Positions 4,090 through 61,860 of a stretch of DNA of 64,000 nucleotides are shown here, piece by piece. Source of the stretch: Rubrobacter tropicus (lineage in GTDB: Bacteria > Actinomycetota > Rubrobacteria > Rubrobacterales > Rubrobacteraceae); the NCBI RefSeq assembly GCF_011492945.1, contig NZ_CP045119.1, forward strand, positions 1,116,001 to 1,180,000, in the 5' to 3' direction. Under the pieces are notes generated by a model, which was not told where the DNA came from, did not search any database, and saw only the letters and a program-made list of their open reading frames with translations. The translations under genes and the position numbers were made by a program. Numbering within the stretch: the stretch's first letter is position 1; every line of letters starts with the position of its first letter.

Positions 4090-4401
4090 ATGGCGGTTTC
4101 AGAGGTTACGGACGCCTCTTTCGAGAGCGACGTCCTGCGGTCCGAGAGGCCGGTCATAGTAGATTTCTGGGCGCCGTGGTGCGGGCCTTGCAAGAGGATC
4201 TCCCCGATACTCGAGGAGATGAGCGAGGAGCGCGACGACGTGCAGTTCGTAAAGCTGAACGTGGACGACAACCCGCAGACGGCGATGAGCTACAGTATCT
4301 CCAGCATACCTACCATCGCCCGCTTCGAGGGCGGGGAGGTCAAGGAGCAGGCCGTGGGCGCCCTGCCCAAGCCCCAGCTCTCGGCCCGGCTCGGCCTGTA
4401 G
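4090..4401 (+). CDS. trxA: thioredoxin
   Basis: 103-aa cytosolic disulfide reductase, reduced by thioredoxin reductase (not in this window). It has the canonical WCGPCK active site (C31, C34), the buried cis-Pro in SSIPTIARF (P74) and the standard thioredoxin length. A GGAGG RBS lies at 4075-4079 before the ATG. Its position just upstream of groES and a CwlM-like gene recalls the trx-cwlM neighbourhood of mycobacteria, which supports vertical actinobacterial descent. Confidence 0.96.
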   Translation: MAVSEVTDASFESDVLRSERPVIVDFWAPWCGPCKRISPILEEMSEERDDVQFVKLNVDDNPQTAMSYSISSIPTIARFEGGEVKEQAVGALPKPQLSARLGL

Positions 4402-4935: not shown

Positions 4936-5997
4936 CTGAGGAGGGGAGATAGGGGACGGGAGGTCGTCGACCTCCAGACCCGCCTTCAGTCTTTGGGCTT
5001 CGACCTCGGCAACCGCGGCATAGACGGCGTCTTCCGCGAGCGAACGGAGCTCGCCGTGAAGGGTTTCCAGCGGTCGTTGGGGCTTTTGGCCGACGGTCTC
5101 GTCGGCCAGATCACCTGGCGCGAGGTCGTCGAGGCCGGCTACCGCCCGGGCGGGCGCCTCCTCTACCTCCGCCAGCCGCCCTTCCGCGGCACCGACGTCG
5201 TGGAGCTGCAGCGGATGCTAAACGACCTCGGCTTCGACCCGGGCTCCGTCAACGGCCTCTTCGACGCTAGGGCCGCCCGCGCCGTGCGCGACTTCCAGAA
5301 GAACGCGGGCCTCCAGGACGACGGCGTCGTCGACGCCGCCGTCTTCAAGACCCTGAACACCTACGCCGCCCAGACCTTGGGAACCCACCAGCTCCCCGAC
5401 AAAAGCGGCGGCTACTTCCCCGAGGACCTCTTCTCCGGTACCATAGTCGTCGACGCCGCCCACGGCGGAAGAGACACGGGATACGTCGCCAAAGGCGGTC
5501 TTTCGGAGGCGGATCTCAACCTCGCCGTGGCGCACGAGATCGCCCAGATCCTGCCGGCAAAGGAGGTCCTCCTGACCAGGAGCGAGGACGAAGAAGTCTC
5601 CGCGGCCGACAGGGCCTTTCTGGCCAATTCCTCCGGCGCCAAGATGATCGTCTCCATCCACCACGCCGCCCACCACACCCCCTCGGCCTGCGGCACCGCC
5701 TCCTACTACTTCGAGCGCCTCGGCTACCGCTCCCATCGCGGCCAGATGGCCGCGACCTACGTCCAGCGCAGCGTCAGCCGCACCCTGGAGACTTGCGACA
5801 TCGGCGAGTTCGGCCGCTCCTACGAAATACTCCGCGAGACGAACATCCCCGCCGTCGTCCTCGAACCGCTCTACCTGACCAATCCCGAGGAGCTAGACCT
5901 CGCCTCGGACCCCTACTACCCCGCCACCGTGGCAGAGGCCGTCGCAAGCGCCCTCGAGCTCTACGCAGGCCGGGACAAAGCTTTTATAGCTGTTTAG
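4936..5997 (+). CDS. cwlM: CwlM-like N-acetylmuramoyl-L-alanine amidase family protein
   Basis: Two peptidoglycan-binding (PG_binding_1) repeats followed by an Amidase_3 domain with IVVDAAHGGRDTGY, SIHHAAHH and VVLEPLYLTNPEEL. There is no signal peptide, as in mycobacterial CwlM, a cytosolic activator of MurA rather than a secreted hydrolase; the trxA neighbour agrees. The first in-frame standard start is TTG 4993, but it would cut the conserved opening RRGDRGREVVDLQ of the first repeat. Between the groES stop and 4993 no ATG, GTG or TTG occurs in frame; CTG 4936 is the best candidate and is used here. Whether zinc is bound cannot be decided from sequence alone. Confidence 0.75.
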   Translation: MRRGDRGREVVDLQTRLQSLGFDLGNRGIDGVFRERTELAVKGFQRSLGLLADGLVGQITWREVVEAGYRPGGRLLYLRQPPFRGTDVVELQRMLNDLGFDPGSVNGLFDARAARAVRDFQKNAGLQDDGVVDAAVFKTLNTYAAQTLGTHQLPDKSGGYFPEDLFSGTIVVDAAHGGRDTGYVAKGGLSEADLNLAVAHEIAQILPAKEVLLTRSEDEEVSAADRAFLANSSGAKMIVSIHHAAHHTPSACGTASYYFERLGYRSHRGQMAATYVQRSVSRTLETCDIGEFGRSYEILRETNIPAVVLEPLYLTNPEELDLASDPYYPATVAEAVASALELYAGRDKAFIAV

Positions 5998-56600: not shown

Positions 56601-59066
56601 TTAGGCCCTCTGGCCGGCGCCCTCTTCGAGCCTCTCGTAGATGGCCTCGCGGTCGATCATGCGCCCGACGTGGCCCTCAACTCCGAGCTTGAGCGCCGCT
56701 ACCTCGTGGGCGAAGCGCACGCCCGTCGTCCAGTCCTTGCCATCGAGGTGCGAGACGAGCAGCGCCGACCAGAAGGCGTCGCGGGCGCCCGTTACGCTCT
56801 GCACGTGTACCTTGGGCAGGGGGCCGACCCGCTCGACCGACGAGCCTTCCGAGACCGTAACGGCGCCGCCGCTGCGGGTCATCACGACGACATTTGCCCC
56901 GAGGTCGTGGAAGGCGTCGAGGCAGGCCTCTTCGAGCGCGTCGTCGTCCATGTTCGGGTCGAAGAGGCGCCTCGCGTCTTCCAGGGAGGGCTTGACGACG
57001 GTGACGTACGGGAGCACCTCGGCGAGCACCTCCCAGGCCTCCTCGCGGTCGGGCCAGACGCGCGGGTCGTAGTTCGGGTCGAGCGAGACGACCTTGCCGA
57101 GCCTGGCCCCGAGGCGCATGGCCCGTCTCACCGCGAGCCGTTGCGGGTCGCTGGAGAGGGCGAAGGCGGAGGTGTGGATAGCCCGCGCCCGCTCGATCAA
57201 CTCGTCCGGGACCTCCCTTATGCTCAGCAGGGCGTCCGCGCCCCGATTGACCTGGAAGTCGGGGACGTTGACGGTCCTGGTGACGAAGGCGTTGGTGGTG
57301 GCTGCCCGCGGCGTGCGGTGTAGGCCCTCCGTCGAGACGCCGTGGCGGCCCAACTGATCCTCCACGAACTCGCCGAAGTAGTCGGTGCCCACCTTCGTGA
57401 TGACGGCCGAGCGGCCGCCGAGCTTGGCGACGTAGACGGCGACGTTCGCGGGCTGGCCGCCGAGGTAGCGCGAGAACCTTTCGGCGGTCCTCAAAGAGAT
57501 CCTGAACTCGTGCGAGATAAAGTCGACGAGCGACTCCCCGACCGCGAGCACGTCGAGCCCGAAGTACAAGGCGTCGAGCGTCTCGAGCGAGGCCCCGTCG
57601 TCCGAGCCGGGGTCCGTGAAGTACGCCGGGACCTCCAACCGCCCCGAGGGAGTGGGAAAGCCGTCGGGTAGGACCTCCTCGTCCCGCTCCCTCCCCGCTA
57701 TGGCTCGCAGGTAACCTTCGGCCGTGCGCTCCCAGGTGTACTTGGCGAGCACCCGCCCGTAGCCTGCCTCCGCGTAGCGGCGCCAGCGGTCGGCGTTGCC
57801 GACGACCGCGTAGAGGCCCGCCGCGACCTCCTCGGGGTCCCCCGGGTCGACGAGGACGCCGTATTCTTCGTCGCCCTCGCGCAGAGATTCGCTGGGCCCG
57901 CCGTTCTTGGTCACGACCGCGGGCAGGCCGGCCGCCATAGCCTCCAGCGGCGCGAGGCCGAAAGGCTCGTAGTTGGCCGTCAGGGCGAAGACCGAGCGCC
58001 GCGCCGAGAGGGAGCGGTAGGCGGCCGCCAGGCGCCGCTGCCCCCTGATGGCGAACATCGAGACCATGCCGCGCATCCTGGCCCGTTCTATCGTCGCCAG
58101 GATGCCGTCGAGCACGGTCCGCTCGCCTTCGTCGGCGTCCCTGTAGTCCTCAAGCGGGTTCTCCATGTTGCCCGTGAGGATCACCAGGTTCGCGCTCTCC
58201 CGCAGGGTCGGGCTGCTGGCGAAGGCCTCGACGAGGGAGAGGTGGTTCTTCTTCGGGTCGAGCCTGCTGGAGGCGACCACGCACGGCAGGTCCAGCCTCT
58301 CCGGGGCGAGGTCGCGCGCCAGGCAGGACCGGACGTGCTCCCGCACGGCCTCCTCGTCTTCCGTGCGGGAGTTCCTGTCGAAGATGTGCATGGCCACGCC
58401 GGGGGGCACGGCCGCGAAGCGGGCGCCGTCCGTCGGGTCGACGGCGCCGCGGTAGGCGTTGTGGGTGTACTGGACGAAGCGCTCCTGGCCCGTGCTCGTT
58501 ACGTTTACCCGCGAGCGGTTCATCGCGAGCCGTTCGGCCACTATGCGCCTGGAGAAGTGGTACTTCTCGTCTATCTGGGCGACGTCGCGGCGCCGCACGC
58601 CCATCTTGTCCATCTTCTGGGCGCCCAAAGAGTGGGCCGTGAAGCTGAACGGGACGCCCGTCCTCTCTTCGATGAGCGCCGCGCACAGGCCGCCGTCCCC
58701 GTAGTGGGAGGTGATGGCGTCCGGCATGGAGCCTTCGTCCTCGTAGAAGGAGAGCAGGTTCGGGACGAACTCGGTGCCGAGGTAGGGCCACAGCTCTTCC
58801 TTGGGCAAGAAACGGTCGGGGCCGCAGGGGATGCGGAGTATCCTGACGTTCGGGGCTTCGGGGTAGGCGTCGGTGGGGGATTCGAACTCGGGCCAGTTTG
58901 GGTCTACGACGCGGCGGGTGACGATGTCCACCCTGTGGCCGAGGTTGCCCATGGCGAGCGCCAGCTCCTTGACGTAGACGAGCTGGCCGCCGAAGTCCGG
59001 GTGGGCCGTCCAGTAGGAGTCCTCCGGGTCGAAGTTGCCCTGTGGGTTGATAAACGCTACGTGCAT
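56601..59066 (-). CDS. sucrose-phosphate-synthase-like glycosyltransferase fused to PfkB kinase
   Basis: 821 aa. Residues 1-460 are a GT4/SPS-type GT-B domain: FGGQLVYVKELALAMG, TAHSLGAQKM, VVASSRLDPKKNHLSLVEAF and the EX7E motif in NYEPFGLAPLEAMAAG (E367, E375). A linker leads to a PfkB domain from about 503: LDVLAVGESLVDFIS, RYLGGQPANVAVYVAKLGG, VVSLDPNYDPRVWP. The catalytic GAGD is GARD (760-763). It would couple sugar-phosphate supply and disaccharide synthesis, or use a dead kinase as a sensor. An intact kinase paralogue lies 24 bp upstream in the same operon. Confidence 0.88.
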   Translation of the reverse strand: MHVAFINPQGNFDPEDSYWTAHPDFGGQLVYVKELALAMGNLGHRVDIVTRRVVDPNWPEFESPTDAYPEAPNVRILRIPCGPDRFLPKEELWPYLGTEFVPNLLSFYEDEGSMPDAITSHYGDGGLCAALIEERTGVPFSFTAHSLGAQKMDKMGVRRRDVAQIDEKYHFSRRIVAERLAMNRSRVNVTSTGQERFVQYTHNAYRGAVDPTDGARFAAVPPGVAMHIFDRNSRTEDEEAVREHVRSCLARDLAPERLDLPCVVASSRLDPKKNHLSLVEAFASSPTLRESANLVILTGNMENPLEDYRDADEGERTVLDGILATIERARMRGMVSMFAIRGQRRLAAAYRSLSARRSVFALTANYEPFGLAPLEAMAAGLPAVVTKNGGPSESLREGDEEYGVLVDPGDPEEVAAGLYAVVGNADRWRRYAEAGYGRVLAKYTWERTAEGYLRAIAGRERDEEVLPDGFPTPSGRLEVPAYFTDPGSDDGASLETLDALYFGLDVLAVGESLVDFISHEFRISLRTAERFSRYLGGQPANVAVYVAKLGGRSAVITKVGTDYFGEFVEDQLGRHGVSTEGLHRTPRAATTNAFVTRTVNVPDFQVNRGADALLSIREVPDELIERARAIHTSAFALSSDPQRLAVRRAMRLGARLGKVVSLDPNYDPRVWPDREEAWEVLAEVLPYVTVVKPSLEDARRLFDPNMDDDALEEACLDAFHDLGANVVVMTRSGGAVTVSEGSSVERVGPLPKVHVQSVTGARDAFWSALLVSHLDGKDWTTGVRFAHEVAALKLGVEGHVGRMIDREAIYERLEEGAGQRA

Positions 59067-59090: not shown

Positions 59091-60062
59091 TTACTTTCCG
59101 TCTTCTGCGTTCGCCCCTTCGTCCAGGCGGGCGTAGATCTCCCCGCGGTCGATGTCCGCGGGGAGGGGGCCCTTGGTGGTCAGCTTGCGCTCGACGATCT
59201 CGCGGGCGAAGAGGACCGAGCGTTCGACGGGGTTGTCGTCAAGGAGCGCCGTCAGGAATCCCGCCCAGAACGAGTCGCCCGCGCCGGTCGCGTCGACGAC
59301 GTCCACCGGGCGGGTCGGGACGTGGGCCGTGATCTTGCCGTTCTCCGAGATCAGGTTCCCCTCGCCGCCCATCGTGAATACGACGGTCTCGGGGCCGAGG
59401 TCGTGGAACATTTCTATGTACTGCTCGGGCTCGTAGTCGGGGCCGAAGACCCGGCGGGCGTCGTCGGCGGAGGGCTTGGTCAGGTTGACGTGCCTGTAGG
59501 CCTCCCGGATAACGCCCTGCGCCTCCTTGTAGTCGGGCCAGACCCTGCGGCTGTAGTTCGGGTCGAGCGAGACGATCTTGCCCATCTCCTGCGCCCGGCG
59601 GAAAGCCCCTATCACGGCCGAGCGGCAGGGCTCGCGCGAGAGGGCGAAGGTCGAGGAATGTACGACCTTCGCCCGGTCTATCGCCTCGTCCGGTATCTCA
59701 TTCGGTTCGAGCAGGTAGTCGCCGATGCGGAACTCCTCGAAGTCGGGGGTGGTGGCCGTTGAGGAGACGAAGATGACGGTGGTGTTGGTCCTGTGGTCCA
59801 TCTGGAGGTAATCGGTGACGACGCCGTGACGCTGCAGCTCGCTCTTGAGGAACTTCCCGAAAGCCCCTATGCCCGTCTTGGCGATCACGGCCGACCGGCC
59901 CCCGAGCTTCGAGACGTACACGGCGATGTTGGCCGGCGACCCACCGAGATACCGCTTGAAGGTGGTGGCGTTGCTCAAGGTGTCCGTCTTCTCGGCCGAG
60001 ATGAAGTCGACCACCATCTCCCCGATGGTGAGGACGTCGAGTTGCTGTCTGGAGGAAACCAT
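59091..60062 (-). CDS. PfkB-family carbohydrate kinase (fructokinase-like)
   Basis: 323 aa. N-terminal signature RYLGGSPANIAVYVSKLGGR and C-terminal ATP/catalytic motif DATGAGDSFWAGF (GAGD 260-263) are complete. It is a close paralogue of the kinase half of the following fusion gene: both share RYLGGxPANxAVYVxKLGGRSAV, RHGV and SLDPNY-RVWPD. Fructose or a related ketose or keto-gluconate is the probable substrate. First gene of a two-gene operon with the SPS-like fusion, suggesting it makes the phosphosugar acceptor. Confidence 0.9.
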   Translation of the reverse strand: MVSSRQQLDVLTIGEMVVDFISAEKTDTLSNATTFKRYLGGSPANIAVYVSKLGGRSAVIAKTGIGAFGKFLKSELQRHGVVTDYLQMDHRTNTTVIFVSSTATTPDFEEFRIGDYLLEPNEIPDEAIDRAKVVHSSTFALSREPCRSAVIGAFRRAQEMGKIVSLDPNYSRRVWPDYKEAQGVIREAYRHVNLTKPSADDARRVFGPDYEPEQYIEMFHDLGPETVVFTMGGEGNLISENGKITAHVPTRPVDVVDATGAGDSFWAGFLTALLDDNPVERSVLFAREIVERKLTTKGPLPADIDRGEIYARLDEGANAEDGK

Positions 60063-60212
60063 GACGCGTAGGTTACTCTACATGCCCCATCCGTACATAG
60101 AGCGCCAGGAAGAGCGAAACCTCTTACCCCGCGCACGCCTCGAACGCGGTAACGTATACGGAGTTGCGGGTATCTGATTCCGGAGTCGGGTCTTACGAGG
60201 CGGGGGCTTTTT

Positions 60213-60878
60213 GTGAAGCGAGTTTGGGTTTTGTTCGCGGTTGGGGCTTTGCAGGTGTTCTTGATCTCCGGCGTCGCCCAGGCGCAGGGCGCGGGCTTTT
60301 TCGACGGCTTCGGCACTTTCGAGGCCGCCCGCTGGACTAAAGAGAACCACGCCCTGGGCCGCGGCTACCTGGACGCCGACAACGTGAGCGTCGCCAACGG
60401 CCATCTGCGCCTCAAGATGCCGGCAAACACCGTGCAGGGGGCGGAGATCCGATCCAACAACCTCTACTACCACGGTTCCTACGCAGCGCGCCTGAAGCTG
60501 CCGAACACCCCGGGCTCCGTCACAGGCTTCTTCGTCTACCGCCCGCCGGACTTCGCCCGCGAGATAGACATAGAGATCCCGAACGACTCTTCGCGCAGGA
60601 TCTGGTTCACCACCCACGCCGGCGGCCGGACGACGAACCACGTCACCATGCGCCTGCCCTTCGATCCCACGGCCAGTTTCCACGACTACGCCTTTACTTA
60701 CGGGCCTGGGGCCGTGCGCTTCTACGTGGACGGCAAGCTCATGAAGACCTTCAACACGGGCCTGCCGCAGAACACGATGTACCTCTACACGAACACCTGG
60801 TTCCCGACCTGGCTCGACGGCAAGAAACCACGCCGAGACTCCTACGTTCTGGTCGACTGGATCCGGCACACCCGGTAG
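60213..60878 (+). CDS. secreted GH16 glycoside hydrolase A
   Basis: 221 aa with signal peptide (1-25, AQA). GH16 jelly roll: FFDGFGTFEAARWTKENHA, the catalytic motif EIDIE (nucleophile E117, D119, acid/base E121) in FAREIDIEIPND, and the closing TNTWFPTWLDGKKP. It hydrolyses or remodels beta-1,3/1,4-glucans outside the cell. GTG start with GGCGGGGG upstream. Paralogue of the next gene, but without the riboswitch in its leader. Confidence 0.88.
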   Translation: MKRVWVLFAVGALQVFLISGVAQAQGAGFFDGFGTFEAARWTKENHALGRGYLDADNVSVANGHLRLKMPANTVQGAEIRSNNLYYHGSYAARLKLPNTPGSVTGFFVYRPPDFAREIDIEIPNDSSRRIWFTTHAGGRTTNHVTMRLPFDPTASFHDYAFTYGPGAVRFYVDGKLMKTFNTGLPQNTMYLYTNTWFPTWLDGKKPRRDSYVLVDWIRHTR

Positions 60879-60954
60879 AATACGTTGCTGGGGAGTCCTC
60901 TTCCGGGGGCCATCGCGGACCAGAGTACGACCGTCGGGCCGGAGCGCCGGACGT

Positions 60955-61034
60955 TCACGATAAGGGCAAACCCGCCGCGAGGCGGGGACGCAAAACCACG
61001 GGCCTCCAGCGCGGGAGGCGGCCGGGTTACCGAA
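60955..61034 (+). ncRNA. cyclic di-GMP-I (GEMM) riboswitch
   Basis: The conserved GEMM core is present in order: AAGGGCAAACC, a GNRA-capped stem CCCGCC-GCGA-GGCGGG (60971-60986), GACGCAAA (60987-60994), CCACGGGCC, a second stem GCCTCC/GGAGGC (61002-61019) and GGGTTACCG (61024-61032). The RBS AAAGGAG starts one base after the aptamer, and TTG 61045 follows, so ligand binding could control translation of GH16 protein B directly. The class binds c-di-GMP through these conserved bases. Confidence 0.88.
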
Positions 61035-61044
61035 AGGAGCGCGC

Positions 61045-61728
61045 TTGCGACGGGTACTCTCACTCCTGTTTGCCGGGTTGGCCTTCACGATCGTCTTCGC
61101 CGGGACCGCCGGGGCGCAGGAAGCCACGAGCTTCTACGACCCCTTCGACTCGTTCGATACCGCCCGCTGGTCGACCGGCGACCACAACCTCGGGCGCAGC
61201 TACCTCGACCCGACCAACGTGGACGCGAGCGGGGGCAACCTGAGGATCAAACACCCCGCCCGCTCCTACGAGGGGGGCGAGGCCCTCACGAACGCCCTCC
61301 ACGGCTACGGTTCCTACTCCGCCCGCGTGAAACCCGCGTACGCCCCGGGCTCCATCACGGGCTTCTTCCTCTACAAGAGCCCGGACTTCGAGAGCGAGAT
61401 CGACATAGAGATCTACAACGATCGCTCGGGCCGCGTCATGTTCACGACTTACGCCGGCGGCCAGCAGACCCACACCGAGACCGCGCAACTCGGCTTCGAC
61501 CCGACCGCCGCCTACCACGAATACGCCTTCGACTACGCCTCGGACTCCATGACCTTCTACGTGGACGGCCGCCCGATGCGCACCTGGGACACCGGCATCC
61601 CCCAGACGTCCATGCACCTGATGGTCAACTCCTGGTTCCCGGCCTGGCTGAACGGCAACAGGCCCAAGAAGACCGTCTACACCCAGATCGACTGGATCCG
61701 CCACACGGCAACCGCCGCGACCCCCTGA
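61045..61728 (+). CDS. secreted GH16 glycoside hydrolase B, riboswitch-controlled
   Basis: 227 aa, TTG start with AGGAG five bases upstream. Signal peptide 1-24 (GAQ). Catalytic EIDIE (E118, D120, E122) in FESEIDIEIYND, plus FYDPFDSFDTARWSTGDHNL and the closing NSWFPAWLNGNRP. Clearly a tandem paralogue of protein A. The c-di-GMP riboswitch in its leader suggests expression changes with the motile/biofilm state; the enzyme may cut or modify a matrix glucan. No diguanylate cyclase is in the window. Confidence 0.9.
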   Translation: MRRVLSLLFAGLAFTIVFAGTAGAQEATSFYDPFDSFDTARWSTGDHNLGRSYLDPTNVDASGGNLRIKHPARSYEGGEALTNALHGYGSYSARVKPAYAPGSITGFFLYKSPDFESEIDIEIYNDRSGRVMFTTYAGGQQTHTETAQLGFDPTAAYHEYAFDYASDSMTFYVDGRPMRTWDTGIPQTSMHLMVNSWFPAWLNGNRPKKTVYTQIDWIRHTATAATP

Positions 61729-61769
61729 CGGACGGCGAGGGGCTCGCGAGTGGGCCAGACTGGTGGGTT

Positions 61770-61860
61770 CTGAAGCTTCAGGTTTCGGGTCGCCTGCTTC
61801 GCAGGCTCTCAGGATTCAGGGGTTGTTTTCGGCACCCCGCCTCGCTTACCGCCCCTGATG
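61770..61860. repeat. degenerate TTCAGG heptamer element
   Basis: GAAGCTTCAGGTTTCGGG, then CTCAGGATTCAGGGG, with CCCCTGATGCCTG in inverted sense near 61853. Weak member of the family at 12519-12664, between the GH16 B and MarR genes. Confidence 0.45.

Follow-up and report, generated by a model that had tools for sequence, protein, structure and literature searches.

The gh16A-gh16B locus

We have analysed a stretch of 64,000 nt of Rubrobacter tropicus DNA (contig NZ_CP045119.1, positions 1,116,001 to 1,180,000), hereafter called the window. Two genes, gh16A and gh16B, follow each other on its forward strand, with an RNA element in the leader of the second (Table 1). Both products scored above the PF00722 cut-off of 22 bits and kept the E-x-D-x-E catalytic motif as EIDIE. 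This agreed with a preliminary description that, from the sequence alone, had proposed two tandem GH16 genes and had rightly taken the host to be Rubrobacter-like. The two proteins are 49% identical and the duplication should therefore be old. The solved structures nearest to the gh16B product were 1,3-1,4-beta-glucanases. Against the NCBIfam equivalog for BglS it scored 126.8 bits (cut-off 300), so that it was not assigned as a licheninase/BglS and, because the score lay well below the equivalog cut-offs, its substrate was left unnamed. Upstream of the pair, positions 56601-59066 encode a fusion of a sucrose-synthase-like glycosyltransferase with a PfkB kinase domain, adjoined by a separate PfkB kinase at 59091-60062.

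Table 1. Features of the gh16A-gh16B locus, in window coordinates
Feature	Position	Strand	Basis or remark
Weak SigB-like promoter candidate upstream of gh16A, GGTAAC ... GCGGGTA	60148..60172	+	Loosened pattern only; speculative
gh16A, secreted GH16 beta-glucanase-like, 221 aa, GTG start, without riboswitch	60213..60878	+	PF00722 88.3 bits, EIDIE
Candidate sigma-70 promoter for gh16B, TCGACT-N17-TAGAAT, overlapping the gh16A stop	60853..60881	+	9/12 matches; 0.1 expected per 1 kb of shuffled sequence
c-di-GMP-I (GEMM-I) riboswitch aptamer	60956..61035	+	RF03167, RF01051, covariation in 86 relatives
G14, P1 pair with C93 (61031)	60959	+	Rfam alignment and PMC9049102 numbering
G20, ligand contact	60965	+	Mapped via Rfam alignment; column corresponds to reference residue G12
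P2 hairpin CCCGCC-GCGA-GGCGGG, GNRA tetraloop GCGA at 60977-60980	60971..60986	+	Structure line; 98.6% of cells paired in 86 relatives
A47, stacked between the two ligand guanines	60992	+	A in 86/86 relatives
P3 helix and variable loop	60994..61028	+	93.6% of cells paired
C92, Watson-Crick partner of one ligand guanine	61030	+	C in 84/86 relatives
Shine-Dalgarno (SD) AAAGGAG of gh16B	61033..61039	+	Directly after G94; sequence
gh16B, secreted GH16 beta-glucanase-like, 227 aa, TTG start, predicted to be riboswitch-controlled	61045..61728	+	PF00722 89.6 bits, EIDIE

The leader of gh16B contains a c-di-GMP-I aptamer

Scanning of the whole window against Rfam 15 (cmscan) returned one riboswitch and no other, a forward-strand match to RF03167 (c-di-GMP-I-GGC) with 72.0 bits (gathering cut-off 59) and an E value of 4.3e-15, or 1.2e-16 when the scan was restricted to 60000-61800. 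The parent family RF01051 (c-di-GMP-I) matched the same positions with 73.1 bits in a whole-genome search (cut-off 35), on the sense strand and in the 5' leader directly upstream of gh16B. A GEMM-I aptamer in the leader of the second GH16 gene, as proposed in the preliminary description, was thereby recovered with both models. The motifs quoted there were likewise all found, namely GGGCAAACC at 60964-60972, the P2 stem with its GCGA cap, GACGCAAA and GGGTTACCG. The placement of its 3' end had to be corrected: the aptamer had been said to stop one base before the ribosome-binding site, and the SD begins directly after G94 (61032), the end of the aptamer core, with the Rfam match overlapping it by three A. 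The P1 and junction pairs of the class (G14-C93 and G21-C46) were both present.

The fold, with the helices of a three-way junction, was supported by covariation. In an alignment of 86 related aptamers, the model's 20 pairs were 91.9% standard, and 14 of them had changes on both sides, compared with 5.8 +/- 1.2 in shuffled alignments (0 of 500 shuffles as high). Sliding the partners by 1-3 columns lowered the pairing to 18-45%. The weak score of P1 was due to the MAFFT alignment, in which about half of the sequences have this helix displaced by one column. At the level of sequence and covariation, the element is confirmed as a genuine c-di-GMP-I riboswitch aptamer.

That only the second paralogue carries the aptamer was also borne out, since a scan of 60000-61800 gave nothing before gh16A even at E <= 10, its only match being the one at 60956. 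In a GH16 tree, gh16B grouped with GH16 genes of other genera, including the aptamer-bearing ones of the survey genomes G005 and G001 (94/90 support), and gh16A was placed on a separate branch. The same pairing of aptamer leader and GH16 gene thus occurs in other genera. Genome G028 has a tandem GH16 pair of its own, in which the aptamer is on the first gene and not on the second. It is a fair reading of these data that gh16A and gh16B are differentially controlled.

A regulon of c-di-GMP-I aptamers

The proposed link between c-di-GMP and a beta-glucanase holds, but as part of a larger set and not as an isolated case. The genome contains eight c-di-GMP-I aptamers, all over the RF01051 cut-off and seven at or over that of RF03167; six of the seven lying elsewhere in the genome were, like the window copy, over the latter. 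The genes downstream encode a sigma factor beside prepilin-like genes, gh16B, an S8 protease, a response regulator followed by a GGDEF gene, an RTX-repeat protein, a hybrid histidine kinase, a secreted beta-helix protein and a GH5-like cellulase; the family search individually assigned only gh16A, gh16B and the sigma factor, the other names coming from reading of the sequences and from the pooled tally. The best NCBIfam match of the riboswitch-bearing sigma factor was SigB/F/G, below the cut-off.

At the level of the class, 28 of the 39 genomes had aptamer matches, about 119 in all. Pfam domains were tallied in the first downstream proteins (n = 108, from automatic gene calls and with many relatives being fragmented MAGs): S8 was found 18 times, GH16 10, sigma-70 region 4 10, beta-helix 7, GAF 6, RTX 5, response regulator 5, HisKA 4 and cellulase 3. 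At least 10 aptamers had GH16 as the nearest downstream gene, a number that only S8 surpassed and the sigma factors matched. A c-di-GMP-I match was present in 155 of 396 genomes drawn from the phylum, and the occurrence of this riboswitch in actinobacteria is therefore not new in itself. Judged by the neighbouring genes, the gh16B switch would be one output of a riboswitch regulon of secreted hydrolases, surface proteins and regulators.

Three further arrangements were observed. Locus L028 (G000:C1:2060000-2075000), with aptamers at 2064072 and 2069334, is a cluster of dprA, a FliA/WhiG-type sigma gene, a prepilin-peptidase-like gene, a riboswitch with the SigB/F-like sigma gene, several prepilin-like genes and then a second riboswitch with the response regulator and GGDEF gene. 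At about 4145-4240 of this locus, after the sigma-factor riboswitch, an ORF of about 27 codons, equipped with an SD of its own, overlaps the sigma start out of frame, an arrangement that may reflect translational coupling. Six of the eleven GGDEF matches of the genome fall within about 16 kb (G000:C1 3669706-3685765) and form a dense group of c-di-GMP enzyme genes, at a distance of some 12 kb from the riboswitch of the beta-helix gene. At locus L071 (G021:C432), two aptamers at 5604 and 5947 share a strand and are separated by 343 nt; a single histidine-kinase-like gene follows them, and the two may form a tandem.

Promoters upstream of the aptamers

We have searched for two promoter patterns, TAAA / CCGATAA and GTTT / GGGTA, with at most one mismatch and within 90 nt of G20. 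The latter is a promoter of the SigB/F type. The former is the sigma-28/WhiG consensus (PMC8325347). Outside the genus of the window, a sigma-28/WhiG-type promoter preceded 34 of 53 aptamers, against none in 40 resamplings of control windows taken from the same loci and including non-intergenic sequence. Within the genus this type was found before one aptamer in 63, and the SigB/F type before 21 of the 63 (control about 1). The aptamers with a sigma-28/WhiG-type promoter came from G001, G012, G013, G025-G029, G031, G032 and G034-G036, with one in G024; all six in G028 had it. Their -10 elements were mostly located ~17-38 nt from G20, and transcription should therefore start about where the aptamer starts. 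The strict WhiG pattern occurred 46 times in G001 (control 7), 31 times in G028 (control 1) and 4 times in the genome of the window (control 5). Some GH16 genes had a WhiG-type promoter and no aptamer (G016, G025, G026 and G027).

The genome of the window encodes a FliA/WhiG-type sigma factor (211 bits, cut-off 189.6), the best solved relative of which is a chain named WhiG (7lq4). No ORF near its two best FliA/WhiG-type genes contained the RsiG motif E(X)3S(X)2R(X)3Q(X)3D, and a relaxed scan of the 400 nt before the window aptamer found neither a sigma-28 nor a SigB promoter. The aptamer may be intercistronic on a shared gh16A-gh16B mRNA or may lie behind a promoter of its own, for which the sigma-70 match at the gh16A stop is the candidate.

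In R. radiotolerans, WhiG is held by RsiG-c-di-GMP (PMC8325347). Taken together with the WhiG promoters before aptamers, this leads us to predict two c-di-GMP gates per mRNA in the genera outside that of the window. A layered regulon, to which we give even odds as a whole, would comprise the following: outside the genus of the window, Rubrobacterales transcripts would be gated at a WhiG-type promoter through RsiG-c-di-GMP and again, on the nascent leader, by the riboswitch; within the genus, the promoter layer would have been rewired to the SigB/F type, with the riboswitches and target classes kept; the SigB/F-like sigma factor next to the type IV pilus-like genes would itself be under a riboswitch; and gh16B would be a member. 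In the literature searched, some of it represented by titles and abstracts, we found no paper joining WhiG promoters with c-di-GMP riboswitches in Rubrobacter.

Ligand, level and direction of control

The key residues of the c-di-GMP-I riboswitch are G14, G21, C46, A47 and C92 (PMC9049102), and we have mapped the Vc2 contacts onto the window aptamer through the model structure and published residues (PMC9049102, PMC4744006). Among the 86 related aptamers the G20 column was invariant, the G columns at that site being invariant or nearly so, and all three A at the A47 site were invariant. A different cyclic dinucleotide, either 3',3'-cGAMP or the ligand of a GGC variant, is nevertheless worth weighing, given that the GGC variant family was the best Rfam match by E value and that the GEMM fold also covers c-AMP-GMP riboswitches (PMC7266159). 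Several observations make such a ligand highly improbable. RF01051 scored slightly higher in bits than RF03167 (73.1 vs 72.0), and the contacts with the ligand are conserved (G20 invariant, A47 in 86 of 86 and C92 in 84 of 86). At the site of A47, the window aptamer and each of its 86 relatives carry an A where the RF03167 consensus calls for G; by score (72.0 vs 59) the aptamer resembles this family, and at that residue it departs from it. The "GGC" of the family name presumably denotes residues 20/47/92. Since the canonical contacts G20/A47/C92 are kept, with A and not G at A47, the label is probably nominal for the window aptamer. The signature of cGAMP (GEMM-Ib) riboswitches is A instead of G at position 20. 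It was absent, the window having G (60965) at this site and the 86 relatives likewise. The diguanylate cyclases that the preliminary description had suggested looking for were found: of eleven GGDEF matches in the genome, nine had the GGDEF/GGEEF signature intact, eight of these with a matching inhibitory-site motif, and the encoded enzymes look active by their sequences. We infer that the window copy binds c-di-GMP.

The TTG start of gh16B lies 12 nt past G94, the gap between aptamer and start being 9-12 nt. Such an architecture recurred in the relatives, of which 87 of 113 included an SD-like core in the first 15 nt after G94 (9% in the background) and 48 of 113 had a called start 9-25 nt after G94. 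Because the SD directly follows the aptamer core and no terminator intervenes, control at translation initiation is most likely. Premature transcription termination between the aptamer and gh16B would be an alternative, as in many c-di-GMP-I riboswitches (e.g. Bc1 with its rho-independent terminators, PMC11218506), and the aptamer leader upstream of a GH16 relative in a Bacillota MAG (UBA2203, L180, positions 2696-2780) does contain a terminator-like hairpin and T-run 3' of the aptamer. We regard it as very unlikely for gh16B, where the gap is so short and the + strand between the aptamer and the start is devoid of terminator-like sites; a Rho-dependent effect at this leader is conceivable. 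The direction of control is less certain. An ON switch, in which c-di-GMP would stabilise P1-P3, free the SD from alternative pairings and raise gh16B translation, is a possibility of some weight, compatible with the slightly more open SD of the window leader in the aptamer-constrained fold (0.50 vs 0.39 free) and with the in vivo behaviour of Vc1/gbpA of V. cholerae (PMC4744006). Folding of 42 leaders gave no consistent change, with an SD accessibility of 0.52 free vs 0.46 aptamer-constrained; more leaders fell (17) than rose (10), neither trend being strong. A matrix-cutting enzyme would be less expected to rise in sessile cells. The RsiG-WhiG system is OFF at high c-di-GMP (PMC8325347). As the folded aptamer abuts the SD and the RsiG-WhiG layer would also be OFF at high c-di-GMP, we lean towards an OFF switch, which we consider somewhat favoured.

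Sequestration of the SD by an extended P1 was not supported as a general rule, the leaders' own 5' and 3' flanks pairing only a little better, at -7.29 kcal/mol, than permuted ones at -6.92 kcal/mol, with 233 of 2000 permutations as good.

We estimate a probability of about 0.85 that a c-di-GMP-I riboswitch sets gh16B translation as one output of an eight-member regulon. In the mechanism that we propose, the 80-nt riboswitch would act on translation initiation of gh16B, a secreted beta-glucanase, and closure of the aptamer around c-di-GMP, or its absence, would determine how easily ribosomes load; with an OFF sign, the folded aptamer abutting the SD would hinder 30S loading. The riboswitch itself is textbook; the surrounding regulon is not described in the literature searched. 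It would place secreted proteases, glucanases, cellulases, surface proteins and sigma factors of a family of non-model actinobacteria under one c-di-GMP RNA sensor. Outside the genus of the window, most copies of this sensor are preceded by promoters for a sigma factor that is in turn kept in check by an anti-sigma armed with c-di-GMP. If true, one second messenger would gate one transcript twice, and the two layers may agree (a double lock) or oppose each other (a pulse).

Comparison with known systems

The bacterial 1,3-1,4-beta-glucanases of GH16 (BglS, ExoK) provided the nearest solved structures and NCBIfam models and share EIDIE with gh16B, but gh16B remained well below the BglS equivalog cut-off (126.8 vs 300 bits). 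The window aptamer resembles RF03167 in scoring over its cut-off, but differs in having A47 where the model has G. The RsiG-WhiG system of R. radiotolerans (PMC8325347) likewise places gene sets of Rubrobacter under c-di-GMP, and its promoters (TAAA / GCCGATAA) resemble the ones preceding related riboswitches; the system acts on a sigma factor and not on RNA, and the paper does not mention riboswitches.

Vc2 of Vibrio cholerae, the type example of RF01051, has in common with the window aptamer the P1/P2/P3 architecture, the GNRA-capped P2, the GCAAA(R)CC core and G20/A47/C92. In contrast to Vc2, GCGA and GUGA predominate in the P2 loop of the related aptamers and CCUC in their 5' strand of P3, and the leader consists of almost the aptamer alone, with the SD touching it. 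Vc1-gbpA (PMC4744006) also joins a c-di-GMP-I aptamer to a secreted carbohydrate-binding protein and, as here, no terminator or anti-SD was recognised. Although Vc1 retains the ligand contacts, it is a weak binder of c-di-GMP, and lowering c-di-GMP reduces the signal of its reporter, as expected of an ON switch (PMC4744006). It lies at the 5' side of a long leader (225-244 nt), far from the start codon, whereas the aptamer of gh16B touches the SD.
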